Origin: a virus
Direction: 5' to 3' (one strand)
Length of the DNA: 47,138 nt
IMG/VR virus record: IMGVR_UViG_3300048839_000431
Coordinates: 1 to 47,138 of that record
Shown here: positions 17,106 to 23,503 of the stretch, one piece after another
Layout of the letters: each line of letters opens with the position of its first letter
Numbering within the stretch: the first letter of the stretch is position 1
Made by a program: the position numbers and the translations under genes
Notes under the pieces: model-generated
Seen by the model: only the letters and a program-made list of their open reading frames with translations
Database searches by the model: none
Told to the model about the DNA's origin: nothing

Positions 17106-17914
17106 GCAGGCGCGCACGGCAGCGGGCGCACCACCCGCGCAGGGCTGGGGCCCTGAATGCGGTGGAGATCGCGATCAACGGCGCGCGCAAGTTGAGCGAC
17201 GATGATGTGCAGGGCCAGCGCCGGCTGCTCGAGCGGGCGCGCCGCGAGATGGCCTGCGGCGTGCAGTGGCGGCTGCACTGGGGCACGCTGGCCGACGCGG
17301 CGAACATGGCCGAGACGTTTGCGGCCATGGGCCTGGGCAGCGGGCCAGATGCCGAGCGCGTGATAACCGCGGCCCAGCGGGCACTGCACGATGCCCACGT
17401 GCGCCACGCCGAGCGCGGCAGCTGCGCGCTGTATGCAGATGAGATCGACGCGCTCGACTGGCTCGTGCGCGTATGCGTGCTGCAGCTCGCAAGCTGCAGC
17501 TACAGCGAGTTCGCGGCGGCGTATGACCGCACGCGCGAGCGCATCTCGCAGGCCCTGGCGGGCAATGCCACGCCCGGGGCCTGCATCGTTGTCGGGCTGG
17601 TGGGGAGCCAGCAGCCTGACGCCTGCCCGACCCTATCCACCACACCCAAAGGCAACAGCCATGACGACCAGTTAGATGGCTGGTGCCGAAGCGAAGGAAC
17701 CTATGAACCGCGTGATTTTCGGAGACTGCCGCGACACGATGCGCGACCTGAAGGCGCAGGGCGTGCGCGTGCAGTGCTGCGTGACCAGCCCGCCCTACTA
17801 CGGCCTGCGAGACTACGGGCACCCTGGACAGCTTGGGCTCGAAGACACGCCGGCCGAGTACGTTGCCGCGATGGTGGAGGTGTTCCGCCTGGTGCGCGAT
17901 GTGCTGGCCGATGA
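17102..17914 (+). CDS. Hypothetical early protein whose 3' end reads into the integron
   Basis: The ORF is 270 aa, but only residues 1-190 lie upstream of the first integron junction (GTTAGAT, 17671). The upstream part is a helical protein: NAVEIAINGARKLSDDDVQG, ERVITAAQRALHDAHVRH, then YSEFAAAYDRTRERISQAL. Past residue ~190 the frame runs antiparallel in content to nothing known and overlaps the methyltransferase out of frame. The original C-terminus was probably altered or extended by cassette insertion. It is near in layout to phage helical regulators; function unknown. Confidence 0.6.
   Translation: MSRRARQRAHHPRRAGALNAVEIAINGARKLSDDDVQGQRRLLERARREMACGVQWRLHWGTLADAANMAETFAAMGLGSGPDAERVITAAQRALHDAHVRHAERGSCALYADEIDALDWLVRVCVLQLASCSYSEFAAAYDRTRERISQALAGNATPGACIVVGLVGSQQPDACPTLSTTPKGNSHDDQLDGWCRSEGTYEPRDFRRLPRHDARPEGAGRARAVLRDQPALLRPARLRAPWTAWARRHAGRVRCRDGGGVPPGARCAGR
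17630..17677 (+). other. First integron junction / candidate attI or relict attC half
   Basis: The box GTTAGAT (17671-17677) starts cassette 1. The bases before it, TGACGACCAGTTAGAT, resemble the right end of the attC sites (CGACCGACCAGTTGGGC at 21,018-style ends, for example before 22028). No upstream R'' is seen. It could be attI, a secondary target inside phage coding sequence, or the remnant of a deleted cassette. The overlapping ATG at 17661 (AAAGG upstream) would give only MTTS before a TAG made by the junction. Confidence 0.5.
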
Positions 17915-18713
17915 CGGGGTGCTGTGGCTCAACCTTGGCGACAGCTACAGCAACGGCGGCAGGAAGACCAGAGACCCTGGACAGAGCAAATTGCACCCGG
18001 CGTTCACTGGCGACAACACCGCGGTGACCTCGTGGCGCCCCGACGATGGAGCGAAGCCGAAGGACTTGCTCGGCATTCCGTGGCGCGTGGCCTTCGCGCT
18101 CCAGGCCGATGGATGGTATCTGCGCCAAGACATCATCTGGCACAAGCCGAACCCCATGCCCGAGAGCGTGGCCGACCGCTGCACCAAGGCGCATGAGTAC
18201 CTGTTCCTGCTGACCAAGAGCGAGCGGTACTTCTGGGACGCGGAGGCGATGAAGGAGGAGGCTGTGGGCCAGAACCTGCATGACCTTACGGGGCCGGGCT
18301 ACGCCGCGCCAGGCCAGGCGCCGAACACCGGAAACCGCAGCAGGCGCGACAGCTTCAAGCGCGAGGCCAGCAAGCGTGCGGAAGTGATACCCGGGCAGAC
18401 CGTGGGCACGCACCGCGCCGACCGCGACGAGAGCGAGTACGACACCGGCAGGCGCAACCGCCGTAGCGTGTGGACGGTGCCGACTCAGCCATACAGCGGG
18501 GCGCACTTCGCGGTGTTCCATGCCGCGCTGATCGAGCCTTGCATCTTGGCAGGCAGTCGGCCCGGTGATGTAGTGCTCGATCCGTTCATGGGGTCGGGAA
18601 CAACAGCCCAGGTAGCGCAGGCGCTGGGCCGGCAATGGATCGGGTGCGAACTCAATCCAGAGTACGCACCACTACAGCAGGCACGCACGGCGCAGGCCGC
18701 GCTTGCCATCTAA
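17703..18713 (+). CDS. Orphan DNA methyltransferase (integron cassette 1)
   Basis: The product is 336 aa from ATG 17703, with leader CCGAAGCGAAGGAACCT. It is a beta-class amino-methyltransferase: catalytic motif IV TSPPYYGLRDYG (residues 28-39) precedes the SAM-binding motif DPFMGSGTT (293-301). This class makes N4-methylcytosine or N6-methyladenine; target unknown. The stop TAA lies within the R'' box ATCTAAC, whose complement GTTAGAT starts this cassette. No restriction enzyme is nearby, so protection of phage DNA against host restriction or a regulatory role is likely (inference). Confidence 0.9.
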   Translation: MNRVIFGDCRDTMRDLKAQGVRVQCCVTSPPYYGLRDYGHPGQLGLEDTPAEYVAAMVEVFRLVRDVLADDGVLWLNLGDSYSNGGRKTRDPGQSKLHPAFTGDNTAVTSWRPDDGAKPKDLLGIPWRVAFALQADGWYLRQDIIWHKPNPMPESVADRCTKAHEYLFLLTKSERYFWDAEAMKEEAVGQNLHDLTGPGYAAPGQAPNTGNRSRRDSFKREASKRAEVIPGQTVGTHRADRDESEYDTGRRNRRSVWTVPTQPYSGAHFAVFHAALIEPCILAGSRPGDVVLDPFMGSGTTAQVAQALGRQWIGCELNPEYAPLQQARTAQAALAI

Positions 18714-18794
18714 CTAGGAGTTAACCGGCGCCGCGCGCCGATGACCGCCGAAGCCCGGACTCCGTTCGGCGTCCGGTTCAACGCACAGTTGTGC
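18708..18794 (+). other. attC1
   Basis: 87 nt. R'' ATCTAAC (18708-18714), R' GTTGTGC (18788-18794). Stem GTTAACCGGCGCC pairs with GGCGTCCGGTTCAAC leaving two extrahelical bases. Confidence 0.85.
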
Positions 18795-18819: not shown

Positions 18820-19191
18820 ATGAGCGACAAACAGAACCTACTAACGAAGGCCGCCATGACCGACGATCAGCGCGCGTGCTTCGATCTGCTGTGCAGAGTG
18901 TTTCTTGGAGAGCACCACGCGCCTGAACGCATCTACGCCTGGGGCCGAGGCATCAAGTGCAACTCGGAGAGCCACCGGCTTTCGACGTTCGACTTTGACT
19001 ACCTGACGCGGCTGGTCGTGCTGGCGCACGACGCATGCGTGAGGGTGGAAATCGTCAGCAGCGGTCCGGGTCGAATTGGCCTGGTGCTGCACAAGCGGCA
19101 CACGCGGGATGGAGCCATGCACGAGCGGCACCCGACGATGGAGGAAGCCATCGAGCGCGTGCGGCCACAGCGGCTGGAGCAGGCCGCGTGA
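18820..19191 (+). CDS. Hypothetical protein (integron cassette 2)
   Basis: The product is 123 aa from ATG 18820; ATG 18856 is an alternative. Segments: MTDDQRACFDLLCRVFLGEH, FDFDYLTRLVVLAHDACVRV, VEIVSSGPGRIGLVLHKRH and HPTMEEAIERVRP. The mixed alpha/beta layout matches no family I know. The leader CCAAAGCGAGTAAGACC is a variant of the shared cassette leader. The stop lies 2 nt before the R'' box GCACAAC, the exact complement of this cassette's unusual R' GTTGTGC. Confidence 0.75.
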   Translation: MSDKQNLLTKAAMTDDQRACFDLLCRVFLGEHHAPERIYAWGRGIKCNSESHRLSTFDFDYLTRLVVLAHDACVRVEIVSSGPGRIGLVLHKRHTRDGAMHERHPTMEEAIERVRPQRLEQAA

Positions 19192-19192
19192 T

Positions 19193-19307
19193 GCACAACG
19201 TAGAGGTGAGGCGGTGACAACGGCGAGGAGATCTATGGACACCACGGACCCCGCGGGGCCAACGAGCGCTGATGCCGTTGGCACTCGCCTCGACCGACCT
19301 GTTGGGC
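19193..19307 (+). other. attC2 (contains the start of the next ORF)
   Basis: 115 nt. R'' GCACAAC (19193-19199), R' GTTGGGC (19301-19307). Stem GGTGAGGCGGTGACAACGGC pairs with GCCGTTGGCACTCGCCTCGACC with extrahelical C and A. The loop holds GAGGAG and an ATG (19235). Confidence 0.85.
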
Positions 19308-19432
19308 GGCTGGCGCCGGAGCGCGCAGAGGATGGCACGCCGATTTGCCCGTGGTGCGAGCAACCCGTATGGGACTACTGCCGAAGCCAGTACGACACGA
19401 TGACGTGCGTGTGGCGACCCATGGAGGAGTGA
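19235..19432 (+). CDS. Small zinc-binding-like protein (integron cassette 3, ORF a)
   Basis: The product is 65 aa. The ATG at 19235 has GAGGAG 6 nt upstream, but both lie inside attC2; the frame passes through the R' box (DRPVGRL) into cassette 3. The C-terminal half carries cysteines: ICPWCEQPVWDYCRSQ and TMTCVWRPMEE. If a later start is used, it must be non-ATG (for example CTG 19310). Likely a small metal-binding protein of unknown role. Confidence 0.55.
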   Translation: MDTTDPAGPTSADAVGTRLDRPVGRLAPERAEDGTPICPWCEQPVWDYCRSQYDTMTCVWRPMEE

Positions 19433-19435
19433 AGA

Positions 19436-19654
19436 TTGACCACACCTAAGCGATACGAAGGCGGCCGGATCAAAGGCGGGTGCAGCCTGCACGATGCCGA
19501 GAAGCCCGAGCTTTGCCAGAAGCACACGCACCGCTGCCCCGAGCCGCGCACGGTTGACTGCTGCGGCGTGGTTGACGAACACGACATCGTGGAGTGCCAC
19601 CGCTGCGGCAAGCAGTGGACCGTGCCTTGCAGCTTTGACGAGGACTACTCATGA
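19436..19654 (+). CDS. Small Cys/His-rich protein (integron cassette 3, ORF b)
   Basis: The product is 72 aa from TTG 19436, 3 nt after ORF a. It is Cys/His-rich: GGCSLHDAEKPELCQKHTHR, then TVDCCGVVDEHDIVECHRCG and WTVPCSFDEDYS. The two CxxC-type groups suggest zinc binding. The CGKQW..PCSFDEDY ending is seen in small phage proteins. Its stop overlaps the next ATG (ATGA), so the cassette is a mini-operon. Confidence 0.65.
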   Translation: MTTPKRYEGGRIKGGCSLHDAEKPELCQKHTHRCPEPRTVDCCGVVDEHDIVECHRCGKQWTVPCSFDEDYS

Positions 19655-19887
19655 TCTACGCCTGGCTGGTGGAGAACTTCACCCCGGAAGGCCAGAGCAC
19701 CGGGCTCTACATGGCCTGCCAAGTGAACATGACGTTGACCGCCGACGTGAACGCGGCGCGCAAGTTTCGCCGGCAGCGCACGGCCGAGTTCCGAGCGGCG
19801 GACATGCGCGAAGCGAGGCGCGGCGACTGGCGAGCCGTTGAGCACGGCTTCGATGACAGCAAGACGCCCAACGCAAAGCTAACTTGA
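19651..19887 (+). CDS. Hypothetical protein (integron cassette 3, ORF c)
   Basis: The product is 78 aa. It begins with a beta strand segment IYAWLVENFTPEGQSTGLYM, followed by MTLTADVNAARKFRRQRTAE and a basic helix ending WRAVEHGFDDSKTP. It overlaps ORF b by 4 nt. Its 3' end extends into attC3 (the PNAKLT codons cover GCCCAAC). Function unknown. Confidence 0.65.
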   Translation: MIYAWLVENFTPEGQSTGLYMACQVNMTLTADVNAARKFRRQRTAEFRAADMREARRGDWRAVEHGFDDSKTPNAKLT

Positions 19888-19983
19888 CCGCCACGGCGCG
19901 CGCGCCACAACCAAAGGAAAACGAGATGAACGATGCAGACAACAGGCCCGCCGTGGTGGGTCAAGTTGAGCGGCCTGTTAGGC
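19866..19983 (+). other. attC3 (contains the start of the next ORF)
   Basis: 118 nt. R'' GCCCAAC (19866-19872), R' GTTAGGC (19977-19983). Stem GCTAACTTGACC and CCACGGCG pair with CGCCGTGG and GGTCAAGTTGAGC. The loop holds AAAGGAAAACGAG and ATG 19926. Confidence 0.88.
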
Positions 19984-20306
19984 CCCGCGCGTGGGCGTGT
20001 GTGTGGCCTGCCGATGACGGGTGCGGAGGCGGCGGGTTCACGACGCTGGACGAGCGCGCGGCGCTGAACTACATGGCTGGCGCGAACGAGAGCGCAGACA
20101 GCGGGCGCAGCAAGTGCCGTCCCGCGCTAGTGACGCTGTACGACGCACAAGCCGTGGAAGCGCTTGTGCGGGCCGCCGTTGAATGCGCGGTTGAGGTGTG
20201 CGCCGCGAGCACCGGACAGCACCGCACCATTGCTGCCTACGTGAACAAAGCCGACCTAGGCAACAAGGTGCTGGCGATGGCTGACGGCCTCGGGTTCGGG
20301 GCCTAA
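19926..20306 (+). CDS. Hypothetical protein (integron cassette 4)
   Basis: The product is 126 aa from ATG 19926, which lies in the loop of attC3 with a strong AAAGGA site; the frame reads through R' as ERPVRPR. The body has CVWPADDGCGGGGFTTLDER, ALVTLYDAQAVEALVRAAVE and CAVEVCAASTGQHRTIAAYV. 'YDA..V..L..A' plus a helix is a pattern of small phage accessory proteins. The stop TAA lies in R'' GCCTAAC. Function unknown. Confidence 0.65.
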   Translation: MNDADNRPAVVGQVERPVRPRAWACVWPADDGCGGGGFTTLDERAALNYMAGANESADSGRSKCRPALVTLYDAQAVEALVRAAVECAVEVCAASTGQHRTIAAYVNKADLGNKVLAMADGLGFGA

Positions 20307-20356
20307 CGCCAAAGTAAGCGGCGCCGAAGGCGTCGCGCTTGACTGACCTGTTGGGC
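20301..20356 (+). other. attC4
   Basis: 56 nt. R'' GCCTAAC (20301-20307), R' GTTGGGC (20350-20356). Stem AGTAAGCGGCGCC pairs with GGCGTCGCGCTTGACT leaving three extrahelical bases. Confidence 0.92.
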
Positions 20357-20384: not shown

Positions 20385-20768
20385 ATGACCGAGCAAGATA
20401 CCGACCTGCTGCTGATGGCTGGCTCCGCTGCGGGACTAGATGTCGGCGTGATCCACCAGCGCCCGCACCGGCGATGCGCCGAAGGGTGGACACCGTGGGA
20501 CCAGCTCACCGACGACGGTGATGCACACCGGCTGGCCGCCGAATTGCGCCTGTCGATCTGCCACCACCACAAGGACGACAGCCCTGCCGTTTCGGCGCTG
20601 GCTCCGATGGAGTGGCACGGGGAGTACAGCGAGTGCCACGAGGCGCACGGCGCAGACGTGAGCGCAGCTACCCGGCGCGCCATCACGCGCTGTGCTGCTG
20701 CAGTGGCGACGCGCATGACGCCCAACGACCAGCATAACCGGACGCCGCGTAGCGGCGGTCCGGGTTGA
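20385..20768 (+). CDS. Phage ABA-sandwich-like protein (integron cassette 5)
   Basis: The product is 127 aa from ATG 20385, with leader CCGAAGCGAAAGGAACGACG. The pattern EGWTPWDQLTDDGDAHRLAA, then a variable stretch, then AATRRAITRCAAAVATR resembles the small phage 'ABA sandwich' proteins. It is a paralogue of the cassette 9 product, which shares the W.PLT.ed.A and ATRRAIT.CAA blocks. The C-terminus is encoded by attC5 itself. Role unknown. Confidence 0.7.
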   Translation: MTEQDTDLLLMAGSAAGLDVGVIHQRPHRRCAEGWTPWDQLTDDGDAHRLAAELRLSICHHHKDDSPAVSALAPMEWHGEYSECHEAHGADVSAATRRAITRCAAAVATRMTPNDQHNRTPRSGGPG

Positions 20769-22063: not shown

Positions 22064-22429
22064 ATGAAAGACGAACTGTTGATGCGTGCAGCACAGGCCA
22101 ACGGCCACGCCTATCCGTGGGTGATGCCGAGCGGCTTTGGCGAGCGGCCGTGGAACCCACTGACCAACAACGAAGACGCTTTTGTGCTGGCGGTACGTAT
22201 CGGGCTGCAGGTGACCGCGTACCCGATGTACGACGAGCCAAAGCATTCGGTGATCGTGCGCAAGCCGGTATGGGACCACGATGCTCAGGAAGGCGACGGC
22301 GTGGAAGTGGTGGAGCCCTACGGCACAGATGCCCTGGCAGCCACTCGACGCGCCATCACGATGTGCGCCGCAGAGCTGGCGCGCCGCAAGACGCCCAACG
22401 CGAATTCGACCGCCAAACCCGCGGCGTAA
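22064..22429 (+). CDS. Phage ABA-sandwich-like protein (integron cassette 9)
   Basis: The product is 121 aa from ATG 22064, with leader CCGAAGCGAGAAGGATTGAGC. The pattern ERPWNPLTNNEDAFVLAVRI, followed by AATRRAITMCAAELARRK, resembles phage ABA-sandwich proteins and the cassette 5 product. The stop lies beyond an R'' GCCCAAC at 22393-22399. Only 12 nt separate it from intI. Role unknown. Confidence 0.7.
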   Translation: MKDELLMRAAQANGHAYPWVMPSGFGERPWNPLTNNEDAFVLAVRIGLQVTAYPMYDEPKHSVIVRKPVWDHDAQEGDGVEVVEPYGTDALAATRRAITMCAAELARRKTPNANSTAKPAA

Positions 22430-22441
22430 CACCGCTCCACC
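22393..22441 (+). other. Truncated attC9 at the integron integrase boundary
   Basis: R'' GCCCAAC (22393-22399) is the exact complement of the cassette 9 R'. No matching right arm or GTTRRRY box is found before or shortly after the intI start; the only GTT nearby (GTTACGC in intI) does not fit. The site therefore appears cut off. Confidence 0.6.
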
Positions 22442-23503
22442 ATGAGCGTCACCCTCGCACCGCCCACCTGTACGGCCGTTACGCGCCGCGCTGCGACCTG
22501 CGCGCCTGGGGCTGTACCGCAGCCCGGCGAGCCCGGGCACCTGCGGCATGCACTGGTCAGCGCCATCCGCACCCGCCACTACAGCCGCCGCACCGAGCAG
22601 GCGTACTGGCATTGGACGCGGCAGTTCGTCTTGTGGGCCGGCAAGCGCCACCCGCTCGAGATGGGCGCGCCGGAGATCGGCCAGTTCCTGAGCCATCTCG
22701 CCACCGAGCGGGATGTATCGGCCAGCACGCAGCGCCAGGCGCTGGCCGCGCTGCTGTTCGTGTACCGCGAAGCGCTCCAGGTCGATCTGCCGTGGGTCGA
22801 CGGCATCGTGCGCGCCAAGCAGGCGCAGCGCCCGCCGGTGGTGCTCACGCGCGACGAGGTGGCGCGGCTGTGGCGCCAGATCCCGCAGTCCAGCGTGCGC
22901 GGCCTGGTGCTGCGGTTGCTCTACGGCACCGGCATGCGGCTGATGGAGGGGCTGCGCCTGCGCGTGCAGGACGTCGACTTCGCGGCCGGCGCGATCACCG
23001 TGCGCGAGGGCAAGGGCAACAAGGACCGCACCGTCATGCTGCCGCGCTTGCTGGCATCCCAGCTTGGCGAAGTTATCGAGCAGCGGCGCGCGCTGCATCA
23101 GCTCGACGTGGCCGCCGGCCGCGCCGACGTGGAACTGCCGCACGCCCTGCACGCCAAGTACCCGCGCGCCGGCCAGGACATCCGGTGGCAGTGGGTGTTC
23201 GCCACCGACGCTTACGTCACCTGCCCGCGCACCGGGGCGATTCGACGGCACCACCTGCACGAGGACGGCATCCAGCGCCTGATGGCGCGCGCCGTGCGCC
23301 AAGCCGGCATTCTCAAGCGGGCGACGCCGCACACGCTGCGGCATTCGTTCGCGACTCACCTGCTCCAGGACGGCTACGACATCCGCACGATTCAGACCCT
23401 GCTGGGGCACGCGGATGTCGAAACGACGATGATCTACACCCACGTTCTGCCCGCGACCCAGGGCGGGCGAGGTGTGCGCAGTCCGCTGGATGCCCCCGCA
23501 TGA
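22442..23503 (+). CDS. intI: Integron integrase IntI
   Basis: The product is 353 aa, full length for the family. It is a tyrosine recombinase that joins attI and attC sites on folded single strands. Segments: RTRHYSRRTEQAYWHW at ~44-58, ASTQRQALAALLFVYRE, catalytic Arg166 (YGTGMRLMEG), Lys in EGKGNKDR, His297 and Arg300 (TPHTLRHSF), His323 (LGHADVETT) and Tyr332. The IntI-specific insert is LPHALHAKYPRAG plus RWQWVF and RTGAIRRHHL (about 232-271). It ends GVRSPLDAP, as class 1 integrases do. No clear ribosome binding site precedes ATG 22442; its stop overlaps the next ATG. Confidence 0.95.
   Translation: MSVTLAPPTCTAVTRRAATCAPGAVPQPGEPGHLRHALVSAIRTRHYSRRTEQAYWHWTRQFVLWAGKRHPLEMGAPEIGQFLSHLATERDVSASTQRQALAALLFVYREALQVDLPWVDGIVRAKQAQRPPVVLTRDEVARLWRQIPQSSVRGLVLRLLYGTGMRLMEGLRLRVQDVDFAAGAITVREGKGNKDRTVMLPRLLASQLGEVIEQRRALHQLDVAAGRADVELPHALHAKYPRAGQDIRWQWVFATDAYVTCPRTGAIRRHHLHEDGIQRLMARAVRQAGILKRATPHTLRHSFATHLLQDGYDIRTIQTLLGHADVETTMIYTHVLPATQGGRGVRSPLDAPA

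Follow-up and report, generated by a model that had tools for sequence, protein, structure and literature searches.

How the captured genes of a phage integron come to be translated is the question raised by the IMG/VR virus record IMGVR_UViG_3300048839_000431, positions 1 to 47,138 of which (the whole stretch of DNA analysed, hereafter the window) carry an integron made up of an integrase gene, an attI site and an array of attC sites, in which two cassette genes, c3a and c4, open inside an attC. The usual view of the attC is that of a hairpin which codes for nothing, lies 3' of a cassette gene and, if it acts on ribosomes at all, blocks them. The explanation favoured here, which is probably correct, is that the genes of this phage integron are reversed relative to their attCs, and that long attCs supply a Shine-Dalgarno sequence (SD) and an ATG from which the frame crosses the terminal box and goes on into the gene. 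The anatomy of the sites, the matching of frames, the reversal of the genes and the positions of the junctions were established computationally; from the sequence we infer translation from the ATGs of the attC loops, and likewise transcription from the phage side.

The two sites concerned are attC2, 115 nt long (19193..19307, canonical top strand minus), and attC3, 118 nt long (19866..19983, canonical top strand also minus), with their 3' boxes, read on the plus strand, at 19301-19307 (GTTGGGC) and 19977-19983 (GTTAGGC), respectively. The loop of attC2 contains the SD GAGGAG (19225..19230, plus strand), recognized from the sequence and from the SD statistics given below, and the ATG of c3a (19235..19432, plus strand), which encodes a CPWC-type protein of 65 aa. 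The loop of attC3 contains the SD AAGGA (19914..19918, plus strand), which is kept in the records L063, L064 and L072, and the ATG of c4 (19926..20306, plus strand; 126 aa). From the ATG at 19235 the c3a frame reads MDTTDPAGPTSADAVGTRLDRP|VGRLAPER..., and from that at 19926 the c4 frame reads MNDADNRPAVVGQVERP|VRPRAWA... Both frames leave the attC in phase 0, reading the GTT of the 3' box as one codon (...RP|VG/R), and no in-frame start equipped with an SD is found downstream of the box in either gene. The sequence-only reading of this DNA had reported an SD and an ATG in these two loops and a frame passing the box in the same phase (RPV-G/R); coordinates, motifs and phase have all been confirmed.

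The arrangement is not peculiar to the window. Phage loci were gathered by an integrase search, by protein searches and with attC-arm patterns that are independent of the start codon, giving 183 distinct attC-gene junctions at a rate of 0.002 false attCs per kb in shuffled DNA, and a second set was found with other patterns, directed to the 5' arm; the records are metagenomic contigs, mostly fragments. An SD and an ATG open to the box occur in 60 of the 105 phage attCs that measure 85 nt or more, where shuffled loops give an expectation of 16.0 ± 2.9, and in 4/78 short attCs (5.2 expected), and the median length is 102 nt for start-bearing attCs against 68 nt for those before self-starting genes. 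An SD with 4 or more matching bases accompanies 51 of the 72 in-phase loop ATGs but only 6 of the 27 out-of-phase ones (P = 1.6e-5), and for the in-phase ATGs the SD-ATG spacing is that of the textbooks, with its peak at 6 nt. When the start phase is determined solely from the DNA upstream of the box and the gene phase solely from the DNA downstream of it, the two agree in 38/41 cases against 19.6 ± 3.1 after permutation (permutation P < 1e-5), and in the second set in 11/12 against 7.0 ± 1.5 expected (P = 0.018). Furthermore, start-bearing attCs are followed by 41 open genes, which lack a start of their own, and by 14 self-starting genes, whereas start-free attCs are followed by 19 and 68, respectively (odds ratio 10.5, P = 5e-10); the association of start-bearing attCs with start-less genes recurs in the second set (odds ratio 10.8, P = 8e-5). 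The 51 fusions are spread over 47 unrelated protein clusters.

Outside this collection, attCs with loop ATGs were seen in genome contigs of R. pictus (33/52), but they are all copies of a single attC type, and the phases agree in 6/10 cases, no better than permuted. In bacterial genome contigs the GTTGAGCGNCCTGTTRGGC pattern led to a single start-bearing attC followed by a long gene in frame, on a Pelomonas MAG contig of 4165 bases (L087), which may be prophage. A control with chromosomal arrays, in which a translation initiation region with an open frame occurred in 2% vs 22%, is unfair since the chromosomal genes lie on the other strand, and is not used as evidence.

The phases that occur are restricted by the box itself. 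The break point divides the Val codon GTT of the box as G|TT in phase 0 and lies between two codons in phase 1; in phase 2 the box supplies the codon TRR, which is a stop in every form but TGG. Of the 38 phase-matched cases, 37 are in phase 0 or 1, and phase 2 is nearly absent because the box GTTRRRY then usually supplies a stop. Profile matches begin near this border: the PHROG match starts at residue 26 with profile position 1 in L015 (box codon 25), at residue 28 with position 2 in L132 (box codon 25) and at residue 17 with position 6 in L195 (box codon 16), and in L051, with the box at codon 25, residue 34 is the first of the MT-A70 domain. Position 1 of the phrog_12600 profile falls immediately after the box, and the matches to phrog_1273 and phrog_24928 begin within 1-4 residues. 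Judging from these matches, the leader encoded by the attC appears to be an addition to otherwise ordinary phage proteins, whose known families start at or just after the box. Two irregularities may be mentioned. In four places (L195:1059, L015:9374, L064:6649 and L051:8499) the box is GTTATGC, which deviates from GTTRRRY and places an ATG inside the box (leader V-M-...). At L132:3637 the ATG led by an SD and the following gene are both in phase 1, and the usual phase 0 leader (RPAVGAPVERP) is still readable in the other frame, a pattern which suggests a compensated frameshift.

To which gene does such an attC belong? Extrahelical bases sit on the R''-L'' arm and set the choice of strand (PMC2727003), and a scorer of orientation was calibrated with two aadA attCs, the known sequence and one in L542. 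In all 8 attCs of the window, which were recognized by R''/L''/L'/R' pairing plus an extrahelical base (the detector finding 0.002 per kb by chance), this base lies on the 3' arm of the plus strand, so that the top strand is minus and the genes are plus. A canonical cassette, with its gene on the top strand of the attC and the attC at its 3' end, is therefore not what the window contains. To take the arm with the extra base as the top strand instead was rejected, since the calibration on the aadA attC and on chromosomal arrays identifies it as the canonical bottom strand. Among 110 phage genes scored, 95 are antiparallel to the attC and 15 parallel, whereas among 49 genes of chromosomal Burkholderiales 6 are antiparallel and 43 parallel; the layout of the attCs relative to intI in the window is the normal integron layout, as in most chromosomal Burkholderiales arrays. 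The box crossed by the frames had been taken as R', but the extrahelical base marks it as the canonical R'', and the canonical crossovers are expected at the opposite boxes, between 19198 and 19199 in attC2 (GCACAA|C) and between 19871 and 19872 in attC3 (GCCCAA|C).

The natural junctions point in the same direction. The site at 22389..22441 (minus strand) consists of a box GCCCAA|C and, between this and the adjoining intI, a conserved block that reads AATTCGACCGC...CGGCGTAACACC; the block also precedes intI in L003, L004, L005, L011, L013 and L039 with different left-hand genes, and in several phages it is joined at the 5' box of the plus strand (RYYYAA|C) to a different gene each time, which identifies it as attI. 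In the window, c3a is followed in the same cassette by c3b (19436..19654, plus strand, TTG start) and c3c (19651..19887, plus strand), which shares an ATGA with c3b and terminates within attC3. The c3b-c3c pair is 88% identical in L013, where the homology stops at 19872, the box being 19866-19872, and the homology of c3c to L003 ends at this same box. After c3c the box leads into attI in L013 and into attC3 in the window, so attC3 and c4 form one inserted unit and the start codon of c4 lies in its own attC. The sequence-only reading had placed both starts in the attC of the preceding cassette; from the extrahelical base, the attI and the c3c junction, that assignment appears to be wrong for the main route of movement. 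The phase statistics are independent of the orientation of the attC, and only the sense of 'preceding cassette' depends on it. The activity of IntI on these attCs is likewise presumed from sequence, the natural junctions being the only evidence of movement.

With the genes reversed, the attC stands at the 5' end of the gene to which it belongs and would form the 5' leader of the mRNA. Phage transcription would read the array toward intI, and because the genes and intI share one strand, they could be read from a phage promoter, so that the integron promoter Pc would not be needed. Genes upstream would end in or near the 5' box. In a long attC (about 100 nt) ribosomes would initiate at the SD and ATG of the variable loop, and translation, in phase 0 or 1, would pass the 3' arm and then the terminal box and continue into the cassette protein, to which the attC would add some 10-25 residues. 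Cassettes with a short attC possess an SD and ATG of their own, commonly about 20-45 nt past the box.

Other explanations have to be weighed. The crossover might take place at the 3' box of the plus strand, so that the attC would belong to the preceding gene and would start any cassette inserted behind it. In favour of this, near-identical genes (94-96% identity from the 3' box on) begin exactly at that box behind different in-phase attCs, as in c3a of the window vs L062 and in L051 vs L072, and the attC3 core (92-95% identical) precedes four unrelated genes, in the window, L063, L064 and L072, all in phase. But the extrahelical base would then be on the wrong arm, and the attI and c3c junctions lie at the opposite box. 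Moreover, in recent events, with at least 97% identity, the attC stays with the following gene (L033/L034, L072/L062, L345/L383) and the break is at the 5' box (L074/L192, L345/L383, L304/L378), so this explanation is unlikely. It is less probable still that weak or non-canonical codons past the box start the true proteins, and that the attC is open in the frame of the gene by accident. Long open frames are indeed common in GC-rich DNA, stops are rare in attC arms in phases 0 and 1, and GTG or TTG codons occur past the box in some genes; however, incidental frames do not account for the phase agreement in two independent sets, for the enrichment of SD confined to in-phase ATGs, or for start-less cassettes that have no SD-equipped start past the box. 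Least probable of all is that the ATG opens a short attC peptide which aids the downstream gene by termination-reinitiation, the mechanism put forward for short ORFs of class 1 attCs and for ORF-11 of attI1. That mechanism is known in class 1 integrons (PMC8876359), but in the phages the frame passes the box unstopped and continues for 40-200 codons as the sole coding frame; ORF-11 is in phase 2 with a TAG stop, and a leader of its type, stopping in the box in phase 2, is not what the matched phage cases show, nearly all being in phases 0 and 1.

Initiation in the attC itself thus remains the preferred explanation, and several points weigh against it. Its support consists of sequence statistics, and in class 1 integrons attC hairpins hinder ribosomes (PMC8876359). 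The phase test in the second set reaches only P = 0.018, and 11 of the 89 start-less junctions have no in-phase start in the attC. The amino acids of the leader are not clearly conserved, near-identical leaders varying at silent and non-silent sites alike, and the hairpin fixes part of the leader sequence; the few near-identical leaders viewed by eye have too few changes to speak for or against purifying selection on leader residues. In predicted RNA folds the region of the SD and ATG is not significantly more open than the remaining loop. A homolog search of the phage collection found none for c4, and none for the L195 fusion either. In addition, an unbiased count gives 17 gene pairs with 70-96% gene identity that differ in attC core, a result not expected if cassettes simply moved in the canonical way; tallies biased by de-duplication were set aside.

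These exchanges of core keep the phase. In six pairs of start-less genes (window/L062, L051/L072, L015/L064, L134/L511, L072 twice and L074 twice) both leaders are in phase 0, and in a seventh, L063/L048, the phases differ between the phages and leader and gene agree inside each phage. One candidate for core replacement is the use of the other strand with a break at R'', because a weaker first extrahelical base shifts the strand choice (PMC2727003). It is possible, though we hold it only tentatively, that phage attC cores are exchangeable translation-start modules: cores and genes would reassort with breaks at both boxes under an exon-like phase rule, recombination would make new N-termini, and only combinations of the same phase would be expressed and kept. 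The earlier suggestion that an upstream attC acts as a mobile expression signal therefore fares unevenly. The start signals in the attC, the mostly start-less genes and the matched frames stand, and the driving of any newly placed cassette is not supported; a weaker form survives, in that at greater divergence one and the same gene occurs with differing attC cores in front of it and the phase is preserved.

Several known systems resemble this one in part. ORF-11, ORF-17 and ORF-18 of the class 1 attI1 also place an SD and ATG in a recombination site and aid start-deficient cassettes, and ORF-11 spans the crossover point; they differ, however, in being restricted to attI1 and in acting by translational coupling through a short peptide whose frame, in phase 2, ends at a TAG within the cassette box (PMC8876359), whereas the phage cassettes start in the attC, use phases 0 and 1 and are predicted to give a fused protein. 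The short ORFs of class 1 attCs, which act by termination-reinitiation, similarly affect the next gene from inside an attC, but each is a separate, unfused ORF behind a preceding gene in the normal orientation (reviewed in PMC8876359). In fused cassettes such as blaGES-1/aacA4 the second gene likewise depends on upstream signals; these arise through loss of an attC (PMC4670013), unlike the phage attC, which is intact and is itself the start, and cassette fusion was considered here and ranked low. Phage-borne integrons and CALINs, with integrases, attCs and methyltransferase cassettes in phage genomes, are already known (Qi et al. 2023, PMC9892861), and phage attCs recombine with IntI1; in a keyword check of that paper, start codons in attC and attC-reversed genes are not mentioned. 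Among the open-licence papers found, attC starts fused to a gene are undescribed. If the preferred explanation holds, a single stretch of DNA has to fold into a substrate for recombination, bind ribosomes and encode protein, with the cassette genes reversed, and phages without an integron promoter would have a route to express captured cassettes. A further prediction is that gene finders assign wrong starts to the cassettes of phage integrons, and the arrangement would offer a natural test of recombination sites as a means to swap protein N-termini.

As for the surroundings, genes for tail, head and packaging lie on the minus strand of the 47-kb window, and every gene of the cassette array (about 17.67-22.4 kb, nine gene cassettes) is on the plus strand. 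The integrase IntI (22442..23503, plus strand, as the cassette genes) matches TIGR02249 with 426 bits against a cut-off of 265. An integrase above the cut-off is found in only 3 of the 24 phage records with start-bearing attCs, so many arrays would rely on another integrase or are no longer mobile. Upstream of attC2, attC1 (18708..18794, minus strand), with its arm pairing and extrahelical base, forms the 5' part of the c2 cassette, whose gene (18820-19191, plus strand) has its own SD and ATG; downstream of c4, attC4 (20301..20356, minus strand, 56 nt) is without a start and is followed by a gene at 20385-20768 (plus strand), again with its own SD and ATG. Cassette 3 (19235-19887) is a tight operon of three small genes (stop at 19432, TTG at 19436, ATGA overlap at 19651), which is unusual for a cassette, and the c3b-c3c pair is found again in both L003 and L013. 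The products of the cassette genes include an N6_N4 DNA methyltransferase, and the methyltransferase cassette is the outermost of the array. The left end of the array (17600-17703) resembles the right half of an attC (TGACGACCA-GTTAGAT, matching ATCTAAC at 18708) fused to phage DNA. Two cassettes of the array, at 20385-20768 and 22064-22429, encode phrog_5086 paralogs, and a second tyrosine integrase, of phage type (23643-24965), lies immediately after intI.
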